Below the pieces are notes generated by a model. That model was given only the letters and a program-made list of their open reading frames with translations, was not told where the DNA came from and searched no databases. From NCBI RefSeq assembly GCF_029338295.1, contig NZ_CP119791.1, positions 1,178,001 to 1,242,000 of the forward strand: a DNA stretch of 64,000 nucleotides, written 5' to 3'. The stretch's first letter is position 1, and every line of letters begins with the position of its first letter. Below, one piece after another: positions 14,520-28,112 of the stretch. The DNA comes from Haladaptatus sp. QDMS2. GTDB taxonomy: Archaea > Halobacteriota > Halobacteria > Halobacteriales > Halococcaceae. The translations under genes and the position numbers were made by a program.

Positions 14520-14570
14520 ATGTGTGCCGTCTTCGGGCACCGGCATTCGATACGGGAGGTGCGGTCCTAA
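14520..14570 (+). CDS. 16-residue leaderless micro-ORF coupled to the CHAT gene
   Basis: The ORF encodes MCAVFGHRHSIREVRS and its TAA overlaps the CHAT start as TAATG. Its ATG coincides with the transcription start predicted from the TATA box, so ribosomes would load here first. A GGGAGGTG ribosome binding site for the CHAT gene is embedded in the micro-ORF about ten bases before the CHAT ATG. It may only serve to bring ribosomes to that site; a function of the peptide itself is unknown. Confidence 0.45.
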   Translation: MCAVFGHRHSIREVRS

Positions 14571-16633
14571 TGCACGTTACAATCGAAGCGTGTGCGGATA
14601 ACCGGGGCCTACGCATTACAGACCCGATCGAACGCAGACAGTGTGCTCTCAGCAGTGCGAGCGAATTGGCGCCGAGACCGGTGGGTACTGAACGGTTTAC
14701 GTTTCCGGTAGACACTGCTGTCGCTGTCGAAGCCGCTGAACTAACCCTCGAGCAGTACGTGGCAACGCACGTTCGAGATGCCGAGGGTGAACTGCTCGCG
14801 GTATCAGAGCCATTTAGCACCCACGATTTGGGCACGGGAACATACAGCATCGAGTTCAATGCGCCCATCAAGATGTACATCCGGGTTGAGGGTTCACTCG
14901 AGGTCACCGCCGGCGCGACGGAGATGACCTTCGACTTCGGGGACGAAACGACGATTCTCGTCGGGGCGCGTTCGTATCACGACAATCCTGCGACGACGAT
15001 AACCACAACCGCTGACCCAGCGGACATGATGAAGGCAGTCTCCGCACTCGGGTCTGCGTTGAAAACGACCAGCTGTGAGCGGTCGTACCCGACGCTGCGC
15101 GGTCATCCTCCGATGATCGAACTGGGCGACGAGCTCGATATTCCGGAGACACTCGACACGCCGGAGACGGGTGTCACGATAGAGGTCCGGCCGTCACTCG
15201 AGGAGATATTTGTCGTCGCATCACTCGCCTACTATCTCGGCGCGACAATTAAACCGGGCGAGGAAGCACGAATCATCACTGACAATGGGTACGTCCACCC
15301 ACTCGGAGAAGGAACGGCGTTCGAACGCGAAGTTGAACGCGTTCTCAAGCAAACGTTCTTCCTCGATTGCCTCACGAGCACCGAGGGGCACTACCTCGAC
15401 TCCCTCTACGAACGAATCGTCGTCGAAGACCGGATTCAATTCGACTTCAGCGAACGCTACGCGCGGTCAATCAGCGACCAGCTTGAAATTGATTTACAGG
15501 TCCCATTCGACACCCTCGAACCGGATATGCCACAGTGGAAGCTGACGACGCACATCTCTCAGTCGCCCGAGAACGTCGAAATACTCCCGTTTCTCGTAAA
15601 CGACCTCGCGGTGATTCGGACGCCCGCAGCGCATACGGTGACTCCCTCCCACGCTCAGACGGCCGCCGTCGACGAGTTCATGCGCGACGAATTCACGCGG
15701 TCGTCTGCTGGTGGCGCGAGTCAACAGATCTCTGTCGTCCAGCCAGAATCGACCGATTCGCTCGAACAGGCGTGGGTCGGCGAAGACGCACCGATCGGTG
15801 CGACGAAAGCCACCGTCTCTGCATTTCGAAATCGACTCCATCGCGACGTTAAATACGAAGATATCGACATCACCGTCGTCTGTAACGACGAGGCGATGGT
15901 CGATGAACACAATGTCGCCGCGGACGTGTACGGGTCACGCGAAGAACTCCCGTTTACCGTCAACCTCGAGACGAACCTTACCGTCGAAGCGCTCCAGGAA
16001 ATCCTCGAATCAGATACAGATTTCTTCCATTACATCGGTCACATCGACAACGATGGGTTCCAGTGTACGGATGGGCGGTTGGATGCAGCGACCCTGGATT
16101 CGGTCGGTGTCGACGCCTTCTTGCTGAATGCGTGTCGCTCCTACAACCAGGGGATGCACCTCATCGAAGGAGGGAGTATCGGAGGTGTCGTGACGCTCGA
16201 CGACGTAATCGACAGTGGTGCGTTCCGCATCGGAAGCACGATGGCCCGGCTGCTCAACCGTGGCTTCCCACTGCGTGCAGCGCTGACTATCGCCTCAGAC
16301 CAAACTGTCATCGGGAGCCAGTATCTCGTCATCGGTGACGGGAGTGTCGACATTGCCCATGCAGAGAGCCTCATGCCATACCTCTGTGACATTCGGTCTC
16401 GCGAGGGCACCTACGACGTGAGTATTCGCACCTACCCGACGAAGTGTATGGGACTCGGGTCGGTGTTCCGACCGTATATCGGCGACAATCAACTTCACTT
16501 CCTGAGCTCAGGACACCTCAAGACGTTCACCGTCGATACGCAGACTCTCCAGGAGTTCCTCGCCCTCGAGGAGGTTCCAGTGGTACTCGATGGAATGTTC
16601 ATGTGGAGTACTGACGTCGAGTTAACCGCCTAA
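14570..16633 (+). CDS. CHAT-domain (caspase-like) protease
   Basis: The 687-residue protein has a C-terminal caspase-fold CHAT domain at about residues 430-600, with the expected catalytic pair: His491 in 'DFFHYIGHIDNDG' and Cys522 in 'AFLLNACRSYNQG', followed by 'GVVTLDDVIDSGAFRIGS'. The first 400 residues are mostly acidic beta-rich sequence that I do not recognise; there is no signal peptide or membrane span. CHAT proteases act in cell-death or stress-cleavage systems in prokaryotes. The ATG at 14570 is chosen over an in-frame TTG/GTG upstream because of the GGAGGTG site. A tiny membrane protein is encoded convergently downstream. Confidence 0.8.
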   Translation: MHVTIEACADNRGLRITDPIERRQCALSSASELAPRPVGTERFTFPVDTAVAVEAAELTLEQYVATHVRDAEGELLAVSEPFSTHDLGTGTYSIEFNAPIKMYIRVEGSLEVTAGATEMTFDFGDETTILVGARSYHDNPATTITTTADPADMMKAVSALGSALKTTSCERSYPTLRGHPPMIELGDELDIPETLDTPETGVTIEVRPSLEEIFVVASLAYYLGATIKPGEEARIITDNGYVHPLGEGTAFEREVERVLKQTFFLDCLTSTEGHYLDSLYERIVVEDRIQFDFSERYARSISDQLEIDLQVPFDTLEPDMPQWKLTTHISQSPENVEILPFLVNDLAVIRTPAAHTVTPSHAQTAAVDEFMRDEFTRSSAGGASQQISVVQPESTDSLEQAWVGEDAPIGATKATVSAFRNRLHRDVKYEDIDITVVCNDEAMVDEHNVAADVYGSREELPFTVNLETNLTVEALQEILESDTDFFHYIGHIDNDGFQCTDGRLDAATLDSVGVDAFLLNACRSYNQGMHLIEGGSIGGVVTLDDVIDSGAFRIGSTMARLLNRGFPLRAALTIASDQTVIGSQYLVIGDGSVDIAHAESLMPYLCDIRSREGTYDVSIRTYPTKCMGLGSVFRPYIGDNQLHFLSSGHLKTFTVDTQTLQEFLALEEVPVVLDGMFMWSTDVELTA

Positions 16634-17669: not shown

Positions 17670-18662
17670 TTACGCCCGTTTGTCCCGACTCGTCGTCGCG
17701 GACTCGACCTGACGGGAATCCGATACGTCATCCATCGGTTCGCGCCGATAGCGGGCAATCTCCTCCAGCCGGCGGGTCTGCTCCCGGTTGAGTGTGACGA
17801 TGAGGTCAGAGAGTACCCCGAACATCAGCAACTGCATCCCAAACAGCAAGAAGAACGCGGAGACGACGGCGAGTGCCTCGTGTGAGATGCCCAGGGTGAA
17901 ATATTCGACCCCGACGTAGGCGGCAATCACGAGTCCCACGACCGAACTCAACCCGGCCACGCTTCCGAAGTAAAATAGCGGATTGTTCGTCTTCGCGAGT
18001 TTGTACAACGTCATCAAAATGACGCCCCCGTCGCGCAACGGGTGGAGGTTCGTGTCCGACGCGTCCGGACGCGCTCCGTAGTGGATGTCCACTACCGTCG
18101 TCGTGACGCCGTGTTTGACACACTCGACGGCGAGTTCGGTTTCGATACCGAACCCGTCCGCGAACAGGCCAAGCGACTCGACTGACTCTCGCGTAAACGC
18201 TCGATACCCGCTCAGAATGTCGCGCAGGTCGCGCCCGTGGATGAATTCGAATGCCCGGTTGATGATTCGATTTCCGGTTCGGTTCAGCCGCGACATGGCA
18301 TTTTGCTCCATGCTCGCGAACCGGTCGCCGATGACGTGTTCTGCGGCCCCCGCGAACAACGGTTCGAGCATCGTCGGCGCGTCCGACGGGCGATACGTTC
18401 CGTCACCGTCCACCATCAGGACGTACCGGGCGTCGATGTTGCGAATACCCTCGCGGACGGCCTGGCCCTTCCCGCTGCCCGATTGTACGACGACGCGAGC
18501 GCCGTGGTCTGCGGCGATTTCGCGGGTTCCGTCAGAAGAGTGACCATCGACGACGAGGACGTTCCTGAGTCCCTCTGCGTGAAATCCATCGATGACCGAC
18601 CCGATGGTTGCGGCTTCGTCGAGAGTCGGAATCAGCACGCACACGTCCTCGCGGGAATCCAT
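17670..18662 (-). CDS. aglJ: Dolichyl-phosphate glycosyltransferase AglJ
   Basis: The 330-residue GT2 enzyme has a nucleotide-sugar binding domain with 'VLIPTLDEAATIGSVID', 'VVDGHSSDGT' and the DxD-type 'MVDGDGTY' (Asp85/Asp87), then two C-terminal membrane helices (about 235-260 and 270-295). It closely fits AglJ, which in Haloferax volcanii adds the first sugar to dolichol phosphate for S-layer N-glycosylation. The context (flippase, AglG-like enzyme and AglB nearby) supports this. The last 40 residues are a hydrophilic cytoplasmic tail. Confidence 0.85.
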   Translation of the reverse strand: MDSREDVCVLIPTLDEAATIGSVIDGFHAEGLRNVLVVDGHSSDGTREIAADHGARVVVQSGSGKGQAVREGIRNIDARYVLMVDGDGTYRPSDAPTMLEPLFAGAAEHVIGDRFASMEQNAMSRLNRTGNRIINRAFEFIHGRDLRDILSGYRAFTRESVESLGLFADGFGIETELAVECVKHGVTTTVVDIHYGARPDASDTNLHPLRDGGVILMTLYKLAKTNNPLFYFGSVAGLSSVVGLVIAAYVGVEYFTLGISHEALAVVSAFFLLFGMQLLMFGVLSDLIVTLNREQTRRLEEIARYRREPMDDVSDSRQVESATTSRDKRA

Positions 18663-18734: not shown

Positions 18735-20264
18735 TTACCGGCTGAACCGAGTGACGAACGCCCTGAGTCGTCCGAGGTCGAGCCCGAACCGTGACTCGAC
18801 GCTATCGAGCAACACGAGTTCCTCAGGCCCGACTCCGAATCGGAGAACGGCGAGCAAATACCCGCCTGCGACAGCAAGACTCACGGCTCCCGTTGCAACC
18901 ACGTCGCCTCCTAACTGGTCGGTCACCAGTACGTACCCGATGAGACTCAGAACGAGCGCCGACCCGGCAAGTCTGAGGAGCGACTCCGTGAACGGCTGGA
19001 TGCCTGTCTCGCGATATAGCTGGTACGAATAGAGCGCGTTGAGCAACACGTACGCGACGGCGGTGGCGACGGCGGCCCCGAGGACGCCGTATCGTGGAAT
19101 GAGCAACACGTTGAGGACGAAATTCACCGCCGCCACGAGGGTGTTGTCGTACATGATGAGTCGCGTTCGGCCGAGCGACGTCAGCGCGTCGCTGTTCGGC
19201 CCGGCGATTGCATGGCTGAAGAACGCGACAGAGAGGACGCTCAGCGCGAGCGCCCCTGAGACGTACTGCTCGCCGAAGGTAACGCGAATGCTCTGCTCGG
19301 GGAACAGTGCCACGACGACGAACAGCGGGACCGTCACCGTGAATATCCACTTCGTAACGACCTGATAGAGGGTTCGCATGCTCTCCGTATCACCATCTGC
19401 GTACAGTTCCGCGATGACGGGCATGAAGATGAACCCGAAGGAGCTCAACATCGTCGTCAGGAGCAGGGCAATCGGATAGATGGTGTTGTACACGCCCACG
19501 TCGCCAGTCGAGGAGAAGTAGCCGAGCATGAACGTATCCATGTCCGCGAAGACGAACGTCATCACCGTGGAGACGACCAGCGGAGCGGAGAACAACAGGA
19601 GGTCGCTGTGCATCGGTTCGTACCGGCTGGTGCGGTCGAACAATGTGGTTCGTGTATAGAGGAAGTAGACACCAAGGGTCGCTGCTCCGAGGTAGGAAAA
19701 GACGTACGCCCACGCGACGCCAGTCGCACCGAATCCAATCGAGAGCACCGCGAGGATGCCGACGAATCGGAGGGTCGGCAGCGAGATGTTCTGGATGTAC
19801 ACCTTCGGGAGCGAGAGTTTGAGCCCCTGGACGCTTCCGACGGCCAGTTTCATCACGGCGGCGAGTGGAATCGCGAGCGCGAAGATTCTGAGGACCGGCG
19901 CAGTCGCCGGGTCGGTGAACACCACCCGGGCGATGGTCGGCGCGAACACGACGATGAGCAAGCTCGCGAGAAGCGAAAGCGGGACCCCAACCTGGAACGC
20001 GGAGACGAGGACGCCACGACGACGGGCGTCGTCCGAAAACGTCGGGAGATAGCGTCCGATGCCCGTATTCAAGCCGAGGAGCACGACGGTCGAGACAATC
20101 GTCGCCGTCGTGATACCGAGCGAAACCGCCCCGTAGTTTACCGGCCCGAGCACACGGGCGATGACTAACTTCGCGACGAACGAGATGGCGAGTTCGACGA
20201 AGAGTCCGACGAAGAGAATCCCTCCGCCTTTGAACAACGTTCTAAGGGCGGCGTTCGTAGACAC
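18735..20264 (-). CDS. Oligosaccharide flippase (Wzx/MATE-like, AglR-type)
   Basis: The 509-residue protein has about 14 predicted membrane spans and the polysaccharide-transporter start 'TLFKGGGILFVGLFVELAISFVAK' with 'LGPVNYGAVSLGI'. Wzx-type flippases move lipid-linked oligosaccharides across the membrane. In Haloferax, AglR has been linked to translocation of the dolichol-bound sugar. Its place between aglJ and the other glycosyltransferases suggests it delivers the lipid-linked glycan to AglB outside. The sugar specificity cannot be told. Confidence 0.82.
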   Translation of the reverse strand: MSTNAALRTLFKGGGILFVGLFVELAISFVAKLVIARVLGPVNYGAVSLGITTATIVSTVVLLGLNTGIGRYLPTFSDDARRRGVLVSAFQVGVPLSLLASLLIVVFAPTIARVVFTDPATAPVLRIFALAIPLAAVMKLAVGSVQGLKLSLPKVYIQNISLPTLRFVGILAVLSIGFGATGVAWAYVFSYLGAATLGVYFLYTRTTLFDRTSRYEPMHSDLLLFSAPLVVSTVMTFVFADMDTFMLGYFSSTGDVGVYNTIYPIALLLTTMLSSFGFIFMPVIAELYADGDTESMRTLYQVVTKWIFTVTVPLFVVVALFPEQSIRVTFGEQYVSGALALSVLSVAFFSHAIAGPNSDALTSLGRTRLIMYDNTLVAAVNFVLNVLLIPRYGVLGAAVATAVAYVLLNALYSYQLYRETGIQPFTESLLRLAGSALVLSLIGYVLVTDQLGGDVVATGAVSLAVAGGYLLAVLRFGVGPEELVLLDSVESRFGLDLGRLRAFVTRFSR

Positions 20265-20336: not shown

Positions 20337-21224
20337 TTAATCAGAGGATGCGGTGGATGGATTCGAAGACCGTTCGCTCCGGGTTTCGTGGGCCACGGCG
20401 TACTGGGCCAGTTCTGGTGGGATTTCGACCACGATGTCCTCGTAGGTCGGGCGGGCACTCATCTCGAAAATCTCTCGCCAGTTTTTCTTTCGAGCGGTGT
20501 ACACCCGCCCGTCGAGCACACCCGCGAGGATGCCTGCCGCGAATATCGGCACTCCGGCAACCGCGATGTGTGGCGGGTGCTTTCGGAGCAGAAACTGGAA
20601 GATTTGCGTCGGTGAGAAGCCAATCTGGTACAGTCCCTTCGCCGAGCGAAACGACCGCCGAGCCCGCCGACGCGCGCTCGGTTTCGAGGACGTGACGTTT
20701 TGCGTGTTCTTCACCGGAAGGTAGCGCAGCACGCCCCGGTCTTCGAGACGGTCTGTCAATTCGTGGTCCTCGCCGCGCATGAGGGGACTGTAGCCACCGA
20801 CAGAGCGGAGTAATTCTCGCGGTGCGATGAACAGGTTTCCGGCGGTACGGAGGGCGATGTCGCCCTCTGCTTCGAGAAGGTCGTGATAGACTTCCAGGAT
20901 GCCCGCGAGGAGGGTGTCGTAGGTCTGGTCTAAATCGTAGTTGGCGATGATGTGCGCTCCGCGAGCGATTTCGAGAGCAAGCTGTCGCCCCTCCCCTCGA
21001 TTACACCCTGGTTCGACGTGGAGTCGAATCGCGTCGTGGGCTGCGGCGAACGACCGGAGGATCGAGAGACTTCCATCGTTGCTCCCGGCGTCCACGATGA
21101 CGATCTCGGAATCGGCGGGTCGCTCTTGGAGGATGCTCTCCAGACTCGACCGTAGCGTCGCCCCCTGATTGTAGTGGGTGATGCAGATCGAGTACGTCCA
21201 CTGGCGGTCCCGCGATTCGCTCAT
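20337..21224 (-). CDS. GT2 family glycosyltransferase
   Basis: The 295-residue GT-A protein has 'YSICITHYNQGATLRSSLE', 'EIVIVDAGSNDGS' and the nucleotide-sugar motif 'YDLDQTYDT' (Asp97/Asp99), then 'GYSPLMRGEDHELTDRLEDRG' for the acceptor site. A C-terminal hydrophobic segment near residue 225-245 may anchor it. Its start overlaps the stop of the GT4 gene upstream (ATGA), so it belongs to the aglG operon. It probably adds a later sugar of the N-glycan; the specificity is unknown. Confidence 0.82.
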   Translation of the reverse strand: MSESRDRQWTYSICITHYNQGATLRSSLESILQERPADSEIVIVDAGSNDGSLSILRSFAAAHDAIRLHVEPGCNRGEGRQLALEIARGAHIIANYDLDQTYDTLLAGILEVYHDLLEAEGDIALRTAGNLFIAPRELLRSVGGYSPLMRGEDHELTDRLEDRGVLRYLPVKNTQNVTSSKPSARRRARRSFRSAKGLYQIGFSPTQIFQFLLRKHPPHIAVAGVPIFAAGILAGVLDGRVYTARKKNWREIFEMSARPTYEDIVVEIPPELAQYAVAHETRSERSSNPSTASSD

Positions 21225-22228
21225 TGCTGGTCTGTCACGATGGTTCGTAACGCCGACTCATAGACCTGTCCTATCGACGCCCAATCGTAGCGCTTGCTCG
21301 CCGCTCGCATTGCCGCCGTATCGGTCGTCTCTTTTGCAGTCTGAATCGCCTCGGCGATGGCAGCTGGGTCGAGTGAGCAGAACGTCGCGAGGCCGGAGAA
21401 CCGTCCCTCAGCGTGGCCACGGAGTTGGACGACAGGGAGTCCTACTGACCCGTATTCGAGTACTTTGAGCGTATGAGCGTCGTCCACGAGCGAGATACCG
21501 ACGTCCGCCGCGTGCAGGTAGCCGGGAACGTCGTCGTGGGGAACAGTTCCGAGATACACCACGTTCTCTCGGGCAGTGGCCGCGGTGCTGACCTGTGATT
21601 CGAGGCCCCCCGTGCCGAGGACGACGAGCGTCCAGTCCGACAGGTAGGTCATTGCTTCGAGTAGGTGCTCGATGTTGTAAATCGGCTCGAGTCCGCCAAC
21701 GTAGATGACGACGTTCCCGGCGACACCCTCGTCGTCGAGCCGTCGCTGGGCCCGATTCAGGGTCTCATCGGACGGGTTCGCAAACCGGTCGAACGAGACC
21801 CCGAGGTCAGTCTGCGTGGCCAGCCGGGCGTACCGACGAACTCGCTGTGCCTCTTCGTCGTAGACGTAGAGAACGTGGTCTGCGAGGGCGAACGACACGT
21901 TTTCTAACAGCCGAACGGGCAGCGAGAGCCACCGGGGATGCGTTTCCGAGAACTGTCTGATTGGGTCGATGTGGTCTACGAGCAGGGGCTTCGAGAAGAC
22001 AACGGAGAGAAGCGTCCCGGCGATGGCCCCCGCTCTGGTCGTCCCGACGACGACATCGTACGAATTTCGCTCACGCATTGACTGGACGAGCGTCCGAGGA
22101 GTGGTTCCCCGGAGCGTCACGTCGAACCCCTGCGTCATGAGATACTCGGCGATTTTCCGCCGCCCCACACTGATGTCCTCGGGTTTGTCCGGCGTCAACC
22201 AGAGGACGCGAATCGGCGACTCGCTCAT
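21221..22228 (-). CDS. GT4 family glycosyltransferase
   Basis: The 335-residue GT-B protein starts MSESPIRVLWLTPDKPED. It has a C-terminal donor-binding domain with 'VVIYVGGLEPIYNIEHLLEAM', 'LGTVPHDDVPGYLHAADVGIS' and 'KVLEYGSVGLPVV', typical of GT4. The ATG at 22228 overlaps the upstream AglG-like stop by four bases (ATGA), so the in-frame GTG at 22234 is not preferred. It sits between two GT2 genes in the glycosylation operon. Confidence 0.82.
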   Translation of the reverse strand: MSESPIRVLWLTPDKPEDISVGRRKIAEYLMTQGFDVTLRGTTPRTLVQSMRERNSYDVVVGTTRAGAIAGTLLSVVFSKPLLVDHIDPIRQFSETHPRWLSLPVRLLENVSFALADHVLYVYDEEAQRVRRYARLATQTDLGVSFDRFANPSDETLNRAQRRLDDEGVAGNVVIYVGGLEPIYNIEHLLEAMTYLSDWTLVVLGTGGLESQVSTAATARENVVYLGTVPHDDVPGYLHAADVGISLVDDAHTLKVLEYGSVGLPVVQLRGHAEGRFSGLATFCSLDPAAIAEAIQTAKETTDTAAMRAASKRYDWASIGQVYESALRTIVTDQQ

Positions 22229-23145
22229 CTCCACTTCGTCATCCCGTAGCCATACCCGAGTCCGACCACTCCGGTGAACACGAACAGCATCACCAGCTGC
22301 ACCAGTCCCGACAGCGACGGGTGAAAGAGGAGCCGTTTGGCTCGGCGTGGCGCGAACTCCGTGAGCAATCGCCCGAGGAAGTCGGATTCTTCGCCGCTCG
22401 ATTCAGGCACCAGCACTTCCATCCCGCGTTTCGAGTAGCCCTGCCAGAACGCCCGCCGCAGGAGCCACTTCGGGTCGGTTCGGTAGGCGAACACCTTGTG
22501 GGCGACGCAAGCGTCGGGGGTGTAGTAGACGCCTCGACCGTACTCGTTGCGTAGGCGGGCACAGAGTTCCGTCTCGCCGCCCTGGAGGTGTTTGTCGCCC
22601 TTCCGACCGCCGATGTCGGTGTCGAACCCCTCCAGTTCGGAGAAGATGTCGCGTCTGAACGAGATGTTGGAGCCGAAGGTGTTTCGCACCTCGCCGGGGG
22701 CGTCTGCGAAGCCGCGATGGGTGACGCCGACGAGCCAGTAGAACTCCGCGGGCAAGAAGTCGGGTTTGCCGGCCACCCAGTCTGCGGTCATCGTGCCACC
22801 CGCGGCGAGTGCGTCGTGTTGGTCGTAGACGGCGACGAGTTCTTCGAGCCAGTCGGGTTCTGCCACGGCATCGTCGTCGATGAAGGCGACCACGTCACCG
22901 TCTGCGAGTTCCGCGCCGGTGTTTCGGCTTGCAAGGAGGCCGCGATTCTCGCTGTTCAGGTGGATGCGAACGTCCTCGTGCGGGCCGTAGTCTTCGAGGA
23001 CGCGCTCGTAAACGTCGGGCGTGCCGTCGACCACGACGACGAGTTCGCGGTCTGTGTGGGTCTGGGCGAGGACGCTCGCTGCGGCCTCGCGGAAGGCGTC
23101 GTAAAGGTCGAGTGAATACGTACAGAGGACGACTGAAACCCGCAT
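22225..23145 (-). CDS. aglG: AglG-like dolichyl-phosphate glycosyltransferase
   Basis: The 306-residue GT2 enzyme has 'VSVVLCTYSLDLYDAF', 'ELVVVVDGTPDVYERVL', the metal/nucleotide motif 'AFIDDDAVAEPDW' (Asp90-92) and 'GGRKGDKHLQGGETELCARL'. A hydrophobic C-terminal helix (about 280-300) should anchor it in the membrane. This matches AglG, which adds the second sugar (a hexuronic acid in Haloferax volcanii). It is divergent from aglB and is the first gene of the minus-strand operon. The sugar is inferred from the family, not visible here. Confidence 0.78.
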   Translation of the reverse strand: MRVSVVLCTYSLDLYDAFREAAASVLAQTHTDRELVVVVDGTPDVYERVLEDYGPHEDVRIHLNSENRGLLASRNTGAELADGDVVAFIDDDAVAEPDWLEELVAVYDQHDALAAGGTMTADWVAGKPDFLPAEFYWLVGVTHRGFADAPGEVRNTFGSNISFRRDIFSELEGFDTDIGGRKGDKHLQGGETELCARLRNEYGRGVYYTPDACVAHKVFAYRTDPKWLLRRAFWQGYSKRGMEVLVPESSGEESDFLGRLLTEFAPRRAKRLLFHPSLSGLVQLVMLFVFTGVVGLGYGYGMTKWR

Positions 23146-23254: not shown

Positions 23255-26200
23255 ATGAGTAGACGTACGAAACAGCCGTCGACTTCGGGCCGAAGGTCCG
23301 AGTCGGTGGCAGGCCTCATCGAGGACTGGTATCACGTCCCCGTATTGCTCCTCCTCCTCGGTGTGATGTTTTACACCCGGGTGCAGGGTTGGAAGAACTT
23401 CGTCATCGGTGACAAGGTCTTTTTCTCCGGTAACGACGCCTGGTATCACCTCCGGCAGGTGACCTACACCGTCCGCAACTGGCCAAGCACGATGCCGTTC
23501 GACCCGTGGACGCACTTCCCGGTCGGCACGAGCGTCGGTCAGTTCGGGACCCTCTACGACCAGATCGTCGCGACGGTCGCCCTCATCGTCGGACTGGGGA
23601 GCCCCGACCAGCACACGATTGGCCTCACGCTCCTCTTCGCCCCTGCCGTCTTCGGGACGCTCGTCGCGATTCCAGCCTACTTCATCGGCAAGCGCCTCGG
23701 CGGACGCTTCGGTGGCGTCGTTGCCGTCCTCATCCTCGCGCTCGCGCCGAGTGAATTCCTCCGACGCAGCCTCGTCGGCTTCTCCGACCACCACGTCGCG
23801 GAAGCGTTCTTCCAGTCTATCGCCGTGCTCGCGGTCATGGTCGCCGTCTCCGTCGCAGAGCGCGAGAAACCCGTCTACGAACAGTTCCAAGAACGCGACT
23901 GGGACAACCTGCGAAGCCCGGTCGGCTGGGCTGCGCTCGCTGGTGTCGCTATCTCGCTCTACATCTGGACCTGGCCGCCGGGCGTCCTCCTCGTGGGCAT
24001 CCTCGGCCTCTTCTTTACGATTACCCTGACGCTCGTCTACGTCCGCGGCGAGAGCCCAGAGCACCTCGCAATCGCGGGAGCGGTGATGATGTCCGTCGTC
24101 GGCATCCTCTCGCTGCTCGCGTTCGACAGTTTCGCGCTCAGTCCGACGCAGTTTACGCTCATCCAACCCGCACTCGCCTTCGCGGTGGCGGCTGGCTGTC
24201 TGTTCCTCGCCTTCCTCGCGCGCAAACTCGACGAGACTGACTACTCGCCGTACGTCTATCCCGGCATCATCGCGAGCATCATCTCTGCGACCGCGCTCGT
24301 CCTGATGCTCGCCGCGCCGGACGTCTTCGACTTCTTCGTCGCCCAGTTCGCCCGGGTTGCCGGCTTCGGGTCTTCGGCGACGGCTCAGACGGTCGGTGAG
24401 GCCCAACCGCTCCGCCTTTCTGACGCTCAGAACTACCTCACGTTCTCCTACGGCCTGACGTTCTACACCGGTGTCGTCGGCGCGGTCGTCATGCTCGTCC
24501 AGTATTTCTACGCGGGCGAACGTCGCGCTGAGTACCTCTTCGTCCTGACGTGGGCCGTGGTCATGACGATGGCCGCGTTCACGCAGGTTCGGTTCAACTA
24601 CTACCTCATCGTCGCCATCGCCGCGATGAACGCCTTCCTCGCGGGCGGCATCCTGCGCTACGTGAGCCCTGACAGGGCAGTACGCTCGGTGCGCGACATC
24701 GAACTCTATCAGGTGCTCACCGTCGTCGCAGTCCTCCTCGTCGTCACGGGACCGCTCACGCTCGGCGGAACGAACGCCATCGCCTACGGGGGACAGGTCT
24801 CCCAGCCGGGCGAGGTCACCGAGTGGGACGACAGCCTCGAATGGCTCTCGAACGAGACGCCAGAGGAGGGCACCTATGGCGGCGCACAGAACGAGATGGA
24901 GCTGTACGGTCAGTTCCAGCAGACCGAGAACTACGAGTATCCAGACGGAGCCTACGGCGTGATGTCGTGGTGGGACTACGGCCACTTCATCACGGTGAAA
25001 GGCGAGCGCATCCCTGATGCGAACCCGTTCCAGCAGAGCGCGACGAAGGCCGCAAACTACCTGCTCGCGACGAACGAGACGCAGGCGAACGACCTGCTCG
25101 TGAGCGAACAGGGCGAGGAGACACGCTACGTCATGATCGACTGGAAACTCGCAGACCCGAGTTCCAACAAGTACTCCGCGCCGACGGTGTTCTACGACCG
25201 AGAAAATCTGACCTCACGCGACATGCTCACGCCGGTGTTCAATCAACAGGGCTCGCGGCTGGTCACGACGGTCCAGTCCCAGCGCCACTACGACAGCATG
25301 CGCACCCGCCTGTACTACCACCACGGAAGTTCCATCGAGGTGGAACCGGTCGTCTCCGATTGGGAGACCGCGACCATCAACACTCAGCGGGGCCCCATCT
25401 CCTTCCCCGCCATGCCGAGTAGCGCGAACACCTCCGCGGTGAAACGCTTCGAAACGATGGAGGAGGCCCAGGCTTACGTCGAGAGCGACCCGACCTCACA
25501 AATTGGCGGCATCGGGCCGTACCCGAGCGAACGGGTGCCAGCACTCCAGCACTACCGCCTCGTGAAGGTGTCTAACACCTCTGCGCTCTCGTCGCCAACC
25601 TTCCAGCAGTCGTTCTTCGTCCGAGCACAGTTGCTCGGCCAGGCGGGACTCTCCACTGGTGAACTGTTCCGCACACCACCGTCGTGGGTGAAGACCTTCG
25701 AGAAGGTCCCCGGCGCGACCGTCGAGGGCACCGGTCCGGCGAACACGACCATCACGGCGGCTGTCCAGATGCGAATGCCGACCACGAACTCGACGTTCAC
25801 CTACACCCAACAGGCCCAGACCGACGAGAACGGGCAGTTCACGATGACGCTCCCGTACTCGACGACCGGCTACGACGAGTATGGCCTCGACGCGGGCTAC
25901 ACGAACGTGAGCGTCCAGGCAAACGGCCCGTACACGTTCACCTCGCCACTCGAACGCGATAGCAACCTGACCGGTACGCAGTGGCGCGGAACTGCTGACG
26001 TGAGCGAGGGCCAGGTGCTCGGTGAAGAAGAGAGCGCCGTGGAAGTCACACTCTCCGAGGAAACCGTTGACATCCCCGAAGGTGCTCAGAACGGCACCGA
26101 CGACGGGAACGCAACCAACGGGACCGACGGCAACGTGACCACCCCACCGAACGGGACGAACACGACCGACGGAAACGAGACGAACACGACCACGGGCACC

Positions 26201-26290
26201 AACAACACGACAGCACAGTCGCTCACCGCCAGTTCGTGGCAGGCGACTGACGGGCTGGCCGCAGCCACTATGCTGGTCGCCCTCCCATGA
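23255..26290 (+). CDS. aglB: Oligosaccharyltransferase AglB (STT3 family)
   Basis: The 1011-residue protein has about 13 membrane spans, then a large external domain. The catalytic Asp61 lies in 'SGNDAWYHLR', a second acidic motif in 'SDHHVAEA', and the STT3 signature 'WWDYG' at residues 572-576. It transfers the glycan from dolichol (pyro)phosphate to Asn in N-x-S/T outside the cell. The last 65 residues form a Thr/Asn/Gly-rich tail packed with N-x-T sequons (26085-26220), which is unusual for an enzyme that recognises those sequons. Its end overlaps the DUF368 gene by four bases. Confidence 0.95.
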   Translation: MSRRTKQPSTSGRRSESVAGLIEDWYHVPVLLLLLGVMFYTRVQGWKNFVIGDKVFFSGNDAWYHLRQVTYTVRNWPSTMPFDPWTHFPVGTSVGQFGTLYDQIVATVALIVGLGSPDQHTIGLTLLFAPAVFGTLVAIPAYFIGKRLGGRFGGVVAVLILALAPSEFLRRSLVGFSDHHVAEAFFQSIAVLAVMVAVSVAEREKPVYEQFQERDWDNLRSPVGWAALAGVAISLYIWTWPPGVLLVGILGLFFTITLTLVYVRGESPEHLAIAGAVMMSVVGILSLLAFDSFALSPTQFTLIQPALAFAVAAGCLFLAFLARKLDETDYSPYVYPGIIASIISATALVLMLAAPDVFDFFVAQFARVAGFGSSATAQTVGEAQPLRLSDAQNYLTFSYGLTFYTGVVGAVVMLVQYFYAGERRAEYLFVLTWAVVMTMAAFTQVRFNYYLIVAIAAMNAFLAGGILRYVSPDRAVRSVRDIELYQVLTVVAVLLVVTGPLTLGGTNAIAYGGQVSQPGEVTEWDDSLEWLSNETPEEGTYGGAQNEMELYGQFQQTENYEYPDGAYGVMSWWDYGHFITVKGERIPDANPFQQSATKAANYLLATNETQANDLLVSEQGEETRYVMIDWKLADPSSNKYSAPTVFYDRENLTSRDMLTPVFNQQGSRLVTTVQSQRHYDSMRTRLYYHHGSSIEVEPVVSDWETATINTQRGPISFPAMPSSANTSAVKRFETMEEAQAYVESDPTSQIGGIGPYPSERVPALQHYRLVKVSNTSALSSPTFQQSFFVRAQLLGQAGLSTGELFRTPPSWVKTFEKVPGATVEGTGPANTTITAAVQMRMPTTNSTFTYTQQAQTDENGQFTMTLPYSTTGYDEYGLDAGYTNVSVQANGPYTFTSPLERDSNLTGTQWRGTADVSEGQVLGEEESAVEVTLSEETVDIPEGAQNGTDDGNATNGTDGNVTTPPNGTNTTDGNETNTTTGTNNTTAQSLTASSWQATDGLAAATMLVALP

Positions 26291-27252
26291 GCCGCCTAAT
26301 GAGTAGCTCTCGCGTCCCCGGCGGCGAACTGCTGTCGGTGTACCTGAAAGGCTTCTTCATGGGCGCGGCAGACACGGTTCCCGGCGTCTCTGGTGGTACC
26401 ATCGCCCTGATTACGGGCATCTACGAACGCCTGATTACCGCCATCACGGAGTTCGACCTCGGCGTGGTGCAGAACGTGTTCCGACTGCACACAGCCGAGG
26501 GTCGGGCCGCCTTCCGCGAGGACCTCCTGCGGATGGACGTGTTCTTCCTCGCTGCCCTCGGAGCCGGTATTCTCACCGCCATCATCACGCTCTCGCGTAT
26601 CGTCGAGGCGGCGCTCCACAACTATCCGGCGTTCACCTTCGCGTTCTTCTTTGGACTCATCGCGGCCTCCGCAATCGTCCTCTACAGGCACGTGAACGTG
26701 GCGACCCCGGGCCGACTCGCCGTTGGCGTCGCTGGCTTTACCTTCGCCTTCCTCATCTCAGGAGCATCGTCGAGCGGTGGGCTGCCCAACACGCTCCCCT
26801 TCGCGTTCGTCGCCGGCGCAATCGCCATCACCGCGATGATTCTGCCCGGCATCTCGGGGTCGTTCCTCCTGTTGCTCATGGGCCAGTACCAGTTCATGCT
26901 CGGCACGCTGCGCGCGTTCGTCGACGGCCTCATCAACGTCGCCCGCGGCGGAGCGATTGACCCGGTCGTCGAACCCGCCACGACCGTCGTCGTCTTCGGC
27001 GTTGGCGCGGTGGTCGGCCTGCTCACCATCGCCCACGTCATCCGATGGGCGCTGTCCAATTACCGCGCGGCGACGCTCACCTTCCTCGTGAGCCTCATGG
27101 TCGGCGCACTCCGCCTGCCCGCAGAAGAGGTACTCGCGAACGGGACGTTCGACTCAGCGGTCTCAGTCGCCACCGTCGTCGTCATCGCCGTCGTCGGCGG
27201 GGCCGCGGTGCTCATGCTCGACTGGTACACCGACGACTTAGAATACGCCTGA
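26287..27252 (+). CDS. DUF368 family polyprenyl-phosphate translocase
   Basis: The 321-residue protein has about eight to ten membrane spans and the DUF368 signature 'LKGFFMGAADTVPGVSGGTIALITGIYERL' (about residues 18-47), with a second copy of the motif in 'AITAMILPGISGSFLLLLMGQY'. Bacterial DUF368 proteins (PopT) return undecaprenyl phosphate to the inner leaflet. The ATGA overlap with aglB makes dolichyl-phosphate recycling after glycan transfer the obvious archaeal role; this is inference. A T6 run follows the stop. Confidence 0.9.
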   Translation: MSRLMSSSRVPGGELLSVYLKGFFMGAADTVPGVSGGTIALITGIYERLITAITEFDLGVVQNVFRLHTAEGRAAFREDLLRMDVFFLAALGAGILTAIITLSRIVEAALHNYPAFTFAFFFGLIAASAIVLYRHVNVATPGRLAVGVAGFTFAFLISGASSSGGLPNTLPFAFVAGAIAITAMILPGISGSFLLLLMGQYQFMLGTLRAFVDGLINVARGGAIDPVVEPATTVVVFGVGAVVGLLTIAHVIRWALSNYRAATLTFLVSLMVGALRLPAEEVLANGTFDSAVSVATVVVIAVVGGAAVLMLDWYTDDLEYA

Positions 27253-27282: not shown

Positions 27283-27528
27283 TTATGCAGCCTTCCCCTC
27301 GGCGTAGCCGTATCGCCACGCCACGTACCCGTGTTTGAGGATTCGATAACTGCCGACGAGGATGCGGGTCGTGAGTATGAGCATCCCGAGTCCGGCGAGC
27401 ACGTCCCCGAGTCCGATTCCGGCGAGTTCGAGCGTCTGTGGGGTGGCGATTCCGACGGCCCACAGCGCGAGGCCAATCCAGAAGGCTTCGTCACGCTGGG
27501 AGAGGCCGGTGAGCGTCGATTCGTCCAT
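27283..27528 (-). CDS. Small two-span membrane protein
   Basis: The 81-residue protein begins MDESTLTGLSQRDEAFW, has two hydrophobic segments ('IGLALWAVGIATPQTLELAGIG' region and 'VLAGLGMLILTTRILVGSY') and ends 'HGYVAWRYGYAEGKAA'. I do not recognise the family. A minus-strand CTTATATG TATA-like box at about 27550-27557 puts the transcription start near 27528, so this ATG is chosen over upstream ones. It shares the promoter region with the DUF4330 gene. Confidence 0.6.
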   Translation of the reverse strand: MDESTLTGLSQRDEAFWIGLALWAVGIATPQTLELAGIGLGDVLAGLGMLILTTRILVGSYRILKHGYVAWRYGYAEGKAA

Positions 27529-27641
27529 GACCGAGTGTTGGTTTTCTAACATATAAGCCTTCTCTGTAAATTGAAGGTGTCGCGCTCGACGCATCGGAGC
27601 AATCGGAATTTTTGTAATGGCGCTCGCCGACGTGCTGAACA

Positions 27642-28112
27642 ATGCCTATCCTCGACGACGATGGCCGACTGTTCGGCGTCGTCAACATCATCGACGCGCT
27701 GGTCGTGCTCCTCGTGCTCGCGGTGGTCGCCGCCGGAGCCGCGCTCGTCCTCGGCCCAGACGAACCGGCGAGCCCCGCGTCGAACAACAATACGACAACG
27801 ACACCAGCCGCAAACGAGACGATGACCGAGAACATGACCATCGTCTACCGCCTCGAAAACGTCCCACGATACATGATCGACCCCATCGAGGAAGGTCCGG
27901 TTCCGGCCTCGCCATCGCTCGTCACCGTAGAAGAAGTCGCCATTCTCGAATCGGACAACGATACGGTCACCGCGGAGCTGACTGTGGAAACCACGGTCAC
28001 CCGCGAAAACGAACTGACCTACTACAACGGAAACCGCATCTACGTCGGCAAAACGGTCACCCTCGATTTCGGTGATGTCGTGGTGAAACCGACGGTCGTC
28101 CGCTTCGCTTAG
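27642..28112 (+). CDS. DUF4330 family membrane-anchored protein
   Basis: The 156-residue protein starts MPILDDDGRLFGVVNIIDAL, followed by one membrane helix ('LVVLLVLAVVAAGAALVLG'), an Asn/Thr-rich linker with several N-x-T sequons (about 48-65), and an extracytoplasmic beta-rich domain. This is the DUF4330 layout; the function is unknown. It is likely glycosylated by AglB, since the linker is outside. Its last four bases overlap the end of the convergent DCC gene. Confidence 0.75.
   Translation: MPILDDDGRLFGVVNIIDALVVLLVLAVVAAGAALVLGPDEPASPASNNNTTTTPAANETMTENMTIVYRLENVPRYMIDPIEEGPVPASPSLVTVEEVAILESDNDTVTAELTVETTVTRENELTYYNGNRIYVGKTVTLDFGDVVVKPTVVRFA

Follow-up and report, generated by a model that had tools for sequence, protein, structure and literature searches.

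A DUF368 membrane protein encoded directly after aglB is a candidate for dolichyl-phosphate return in haloarchaeal N-glycosylation

In this study, we propose, with a probability of roughly 0.7, that the DUF368 protein of haloarchaea would return dolichyl phosphate for AglB-dependent surface N-glycosylation. Gene identities at one locus, a conserved aglB-DUF368 unit, an internally repeated membrane protein, and the absence of DUF368 from the aglB locus in lineages with a paralogue elsewhere were established here. No protein is assigned to the return of dolichyl phosphate to the inner leaflet in the archaeal N-glycosylation literature searched, and no better candidate than haloarchaeal DUF368 has so far emerged for this missing carrier-return step. 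The preliminary description of this DNA had called the recycling step one not known to be assigned, but a possible relevance of DUF368 to dolichol phosphate had already been raised, together with its enrichment in Halobacteria (PMC9876793).

The window, which is the whole stretch of 64,000 nucleotides of Haladaptatus sp. QDMS2 DNA that was analysed, carries the DUF368 gene directly after the AglB gene, as had been described, and the TIGR04154 and PF04018 matches fall in adjoining open reading frames (Table 1). AglB was identified by a score of 890.8 bits against TIGR04154 (cut-off 450) and by WWDYG in its translation, and the AglJ and AglG equivalogs (TIGR04182, NF041394) near aglB mark the region as an N-glycosylation locus. 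On the minus strand, several short overlaps exist between neighbouring genes from AglG (from 23145) to AglJ. Candidates for the loading, extension, outward flipping, transfer and return of the carrier are all present in this locus. The candidate outward flippase is of the MOP type, as are AglR and Agl15 of Haloferax volcanii. AglR and Agl15 have been assigned outward roles (PMC3871713); like the function proposed here, these concern lipid-carrier movement in N-glycosylation, but they differ in being outward and in acting on charged dolichyl phosphate. The glycosylation cluster of H. volcanii spans aglJ to aglM (PMC5867893).

Table 1. Coordinates of the aglB-DUF368 pair, of the neighbouring glycosylation genes and of the DUF368 motifs in the window
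Feature	Position	Strand	Basis
AglJ, first-sugar transfer to dolichyl phosphate	17670..18662	-	TIGR04182 441.6 bits, cut-off 325
MOP/Wzx-type flippase, candidate outward flippase of charged carrier	18735..20264	-	PF01943 87.8 bits, PF13440, PF01554, PF03023
GT2-type glycosyltransferase	20337..21224	-	PF00535
GT4-type glycosyltransferase	21221..22234	-	PF13692, PF00534
AglG glycosyltransferase (glucosyl-dolichyl phosphate glucuronosyltransferase), divergent from aglB	22225..23145	-	NF041394 508.7 bits, cut-off 440
AglB oligosaccharyltransferase, 1011 aa	23255..26290	+	TIGR04154, PF02516, PF22627, PF18079, WWDYG
Junction aglB stop / DUF368 start	26287..26302	+	ATGA 26287-26290; conserved ATG 26299
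DUF368 (PF04018) polytopic membrane protein, 321 aa	26287..27252	+	PF04018; conserved start possibly 26299
PGVSGGT motif, first repeat, residues 32-38	26380..26400	+	invariant or near-invariant columns, 43 archaeal DUF368
PGISG motif, second repeat, residues 187-191	26845..26859	+	P187, G188, S190, G191 invariant

Considering these genes, a plausible model can be outlined for the carrier cycle. AglJ, AglG and the other transferases would assemble the glycan on dolichyl phosphate at the cytoplasmic face, the MOP flippase would turn the charged carrier outward, and AglB would move the glycan to Asn. Dolichyl monophosphate stripped of its glycan would then be left in the outer leaflet. DUF368 would bring this lipid back to the inner leaflet, where AglJ could load it again, and co-transcription with aglB would keep the capacity for return in step with the release of carrier. 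We infer the substrate and direction of archaeal DUF368, its co-transcription with aglB and the place of AglB as main client. Archaeal N-glycans characterised by 2015 are built from dolichol monophosphate, with a single exception (PMC4476749; also PMC3871713). Because the carrier freed by AglB would be mostly dolichyl monophosphate, judging from the characterised haloarchaeal N-glycans, no pyrophosphatase need intervene. The undecaprenyl pyrophosphatase BacA/UppP likewise acts in carrier recycling and in some bacteria occurs as a fusion with DUF368 (PMC9876793), but it is a pyrophosphatase, whereas the carriers of archaeal N-glycans are mostly monophosphates, and it gave only a weak fold match with the DUF368 model (5oon, Foldseek E 0.38).

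At the junction itself, DUF368 had been described as starting at 26270 and as overlapping aglB by ATGA. The ATG at 26270 lies in the AglB frame, and the DUF368 frame opens at 26287. Read directly from the sequence, ATGA at 26287-26290 is common to the end of aglB and the opening of the DUF368 frame, so the overlap is present, but it is not conserved. In two congeners, the AglB stop and the DUF368 start form TAATG, aligned to the window ATG at 26299, and a CACGAG to CATGAG change relative to these congeners created the earlier TGA and the ATG at 26287 in the window. The overlap was therefore rejected as a conserved feature, since the congeners start at the equivalent of 26299. Starts at 26287 and 26299 are both possible, giving a 4-nt overlap (-4) or an 8-nt gap (+8) with no overlap; the spacing is tight with either, and residues 1-7 of the AlphaFold2 model have a pLDDT below 50. 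With one representative per genus, 33 of the 54 linked genera have the DUF368 start between -4 and +8 nt relative to the aglB stop; in 16 genera the distance is 30-157 nt, and in the remaining 5 it is larger, with a gap of 1.6-2.3 kb in four. Scans of the locus with bacterial promoter models gave no match and those with bacterial terminator models gave matches at shuffle level, both sets of models being uninformative for an archaeal host, and a search for direct and inverted repeats across the locus gave codon-level and low-complexity repeats only.

The DUF368 protein has a good correspondence with its family. It scored 226.4 bits against PF04018 (gathering cut-off 26), its two halves align with each other (E 8e-4), and the PGVSGGT and PGISG motifs, the conservation of which was judged over 43 archaeal DUF368 sequences, lie at helix breaks in equivalent places of both halves in the model and the repeat alignment. 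The AlphaFold2 model, built with the 43 archaeal sequences, is nearly all helix, with a mean pLDDT of 92 and a pTM of 0.87. The features of PF04018, namely a polytopic helical protein of two related halves with PG-[VI]-SG, were all found. A PDB sequence search with the protein gave no relative, and Foldseek with the model gave nothing at E 0.001 or better. The best VIA-align match was a ZIP transporter (Z 9.3, rmsd 4.2 over 155 residues), within the range expected of helical proteins, and BacA was absent among the VIA-align matches listed. Fold kinship with a solved protein is not claimed, since these matches lie within the helical background.

Bacterial DUF368 proteins are genetically supported return translocases of C55-P, and bare C55-P accumulates at the surface of their mutants, transport-independent roles not having been fully excluded (PMC9876793). 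A DUF368 protein from Pseudomonas can take the place of a C55-P flippase of the DedA family (PMC12893004), which likewise supports the translocase reading. VCA0040 of Vibrio cholerae and PopT (SAOUHSC_00846) of Staphylococcus aureus are, like the window protein, PF04018 membrane proteins. Unlike them, the window protein is linked to an oligosaccharyltransferase, its expected lipid is dolichyl phosphate, its host is without peptidoglycan, and it falls below the NCBIfam equivalog cut-offs, with 90.4 bits for PopT (NF052563) and 203.3 bits for the VCA0040 type (NF052564), both with a cut-off of 400. Because of these scores it was filed as DUF368 and not as PopT, and they were counted against the translocase reading. 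HVO_RS12060 of H. volcanii, a haloarchaeal DUF368 like the window protein, is the one that has been tried in V. cholerae, where it partly complements a VCA0040 mutant (Sit et al., 2022; PMC9876793); our literature search found no study of it in its own host.

Across the class, DUF368 and AglB were each present in 289 of 292 Halobacteria genomes. Two genomes without both (G187, G206) are fragmented drafts, in which one assembly gap could remove both neighbours. Only one of the haloarchaeal genomes sampled (G021; 98% complete, 1.9 Mb) combines AglB and DedA with the lack of DUF368 at threshold. Linkage was scored by intersecting the coordinates of aglB and DUF368 matches in the 288 haloarchaeal genomes with both placed, and DUF368 follows aglB in 203 of them, representing 54 of 76 genera and 9 of 10 families. 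The two genes share a strand, in the order aglB then DUF368, in all 203; the DUF368 match lies at most 1 kb after the aglB match in 190/288 genomes and 1-3.2 kb after it in 13/288. Such conservation of order and orientation is far beyond chance. The preliminary description had suggested surveying how often DUF368 adjoins aglB in archaea, and had held that DUF368 genes without linkage to glycosylation would speak against the recycling role; in haloarchaea, the survey returned linkage to aglB at this frequency. An intervening gene was found in four loci. In the one tested it is AglM (NF041297, 757 bits against a cut-off of 670); those of the other three loci belong to the same sequence cluster. 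AglM is an N-glycosylation gene. A single-protein search of genome contigs with DUF368 gave one locus, in Halorientalis salina. In the 85 unlinked genomes, which were counted against a translocase serving AglB, the two genes are far apart on one contig (44) or on different contigs (41, some of which may be assembly breaks).

In a quick tree of 100 DUF368 proteins, with several forks unresolved, 21 unlinked copies form one clade (SH-aLRT 98), which includes the second DUF368 gene of the window's own genome (G000:C1:1554741-1555502; L090). Linked copies fall into several groups, all outside this paralogue clade, and non-haloarchaeal DUF368 proteins lie outside the haloarchaeal ones. This branching is consistent with an ancestral linkage to aglB. 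Among 20 unlinked DUF368 loci from 19 genera, sampled to represent the unlinked genomes, 17 belong to the paralogue clade, and some of these genera also contain linked species. In 20 unlinked genomes, the aglB locus often keeps its usual flanks, AglG-like on the upstream side and clusters 14, 7 or 8 on the downstream side, but lacks DUF368. No glycosylation neighbours of paralogue-clade DUF368 genes were seen, their neighbours being unrelated, e.g., a thermosome subunit and a MutS-like protein, and no conserved neighbours were seen for the clade containing L090. In seven genomes of one genus (G048, G095, G126, G217, G219, G276, G289), aglB is far from DUF368 or on another contig; at one unlinked locus of this genus (L113), DUF368 still adjoins a gene resembling aglM, as though it were aglB that had relocated.

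The unlinked copies bear on a reading to which we give somewhat less than even odds. In it, DUF368 would return dolichyl phosphate for every process that uses this lipid in the outer leaflet (AglS mannosylation, low-salt glycan, exopolysaccharide), aglB being only the largest client and a chance host of the gene. The presence of DUF368 in nearly every genome, also where unlinked from aglB, would be expected of such a protein, as would a paralogue clade in unrelated neighbourhoods, and H. volcanii has other DolP-dependent steps (PMC3871713); against this reading, aglB is the one gene that has long stayed beside DUF368 as the remaining neighbours were exchanged. This reading differs from a translocase serving AglB in its clients only and shares its mechanism, and the confidences in the two overlap. 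We regard as evenly balanced the stricter proposition that the aglB-linked DUF368 is a dedicated return translocase and that haloarchaea keep at least one DUF368, carrier return being indispensable.

Outside Halobacteria, DUF368 was found in 34 of 203 Halobacteriota genomes, and no AglB-like open reading frame lay within ~8 kb of it in 20 such loci, where nucleotide-sugar epimerase-like, phosphoglycerate-mutase-like and pyruvate:ferredoxin oxidoreductase genes are frequent neighbours. A universal archaeal step was therefore rejected; the earlier claim that DUF368 is the archaeal dolichyl-phosphate recycling protein keeps its footing in haloarchaea, on the class-wide linkage and the genes of the locus, but not in archaea at large. 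DedA/VTT (PF09335) proteins have the same proposed job of carrier return, but belong to another Pfam family and are encoded by separate genes. We consider it unlikely that they, and not DUF368, are the main route of dolichyl-phosphate return in haloarchaea. They were present in all 43 Halobacteria genomes searched, with 4 matches in the window's own genome, and certain DedA subfamilies act in carrier return in bacteria (PMC10127716, PMC12893004). Outside Halobacteria, however, where DedA was found in 87 of 203 Halobacteriota genomes, it is rarer with DUF368 (9/34) than without it (78/169; Fisher p 0.04, uncorrected for relatedness), which fits interchangeable roles and not a primary role of DedA. 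DedA proteins could do the same job in haloarchaea, which counts against DUF368 as the return translocase, and their redundancy may hide the phenotype of a single-gene DUF368 deletion. Many archaea have neither family, so if they depend on return of the carrier, it must take place by other routes.

It is also conceivable, though quite improbable, that the gene order was inherited passively with no functional tie, DUF368 being an envelope adaptation to salt or alkaline conditions. The family has been associated with halophiles and with fitness in the presence of sodium and at alkaline pH (PMC9876793), and the genomes have common ancestry, so the 203 linked cases are not independent. The immediate surroundings of the pair provide a local control, in comparisons of loci between families that are not mutually independent, with genes called by sequence conservation, which favours common genes equally at all three positions. 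The gene next after aglB was common to two loci in 81% of these comparisons and the gene before aglB in 43%, mostly AglG-like, but the gene after DUF368 in only 1.9%. Because the pair was kept together while the next position turned over almost fully, the control argues against shared descent alone as the source of the linkage, and the tight spacing kept in most genera (33/54) points the same way. That DUF368 works outward, helping to flip the charged dolichyl-phosphate glycan to AglB, is very improbable: adjacency to aglB by itself gives no direction, but the same locus holds a MOP flippase, the type with outward roles in H. volcanii (PMC3871713), and bare C55-P builds up at the surface of bacterial DUF368 mutants (PMC9876793).

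As far as the literature covered shows, the class-wide linkage to aglB and the paralogue pattern are new evidence on a protein that, as a member of its family, is not new. The search, which covered mostly open-access papers, found nothing joining DUF368 with aglB, and priority is accordingly uncertain. The class-wide, operon-like link between an oligosaccharyltransferase and a carrier-recycling family points to one defined deletion target in haloarchaea amenable to genetics, and a natural contrast exists between lineages that carry the linked copy and those where only the paralogue was seen. Furthermore, the bacterial recycling model would be extended to peptidoglycan-free organisms and dolichol carriers.

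Several minor observations concern the genes around the pair. The last 110 residues of AglB (25958-26287) contain 11 N-x-S/T sequons, compared with 2.9 in shuffles. Taking one sequence from each linked genus together with that of the window, 34 of the 55 tails exceed their shuffles, although the tail sequences differ; judging from these sequons, AglB may glycosylate its own C-terminal tail. A 703-residue open reading frame (14522-16633, +) adjoins the AglJ end of the cluster. Downstream of the aglB-DUF368 pair, beyond a small opposite-strand open reading frame (27283-27642), a DUF4330 protein is encoded at 27642-28112 (+), and the genes that come after it are common to a congener locus (L053) and hardly found elsewhere.
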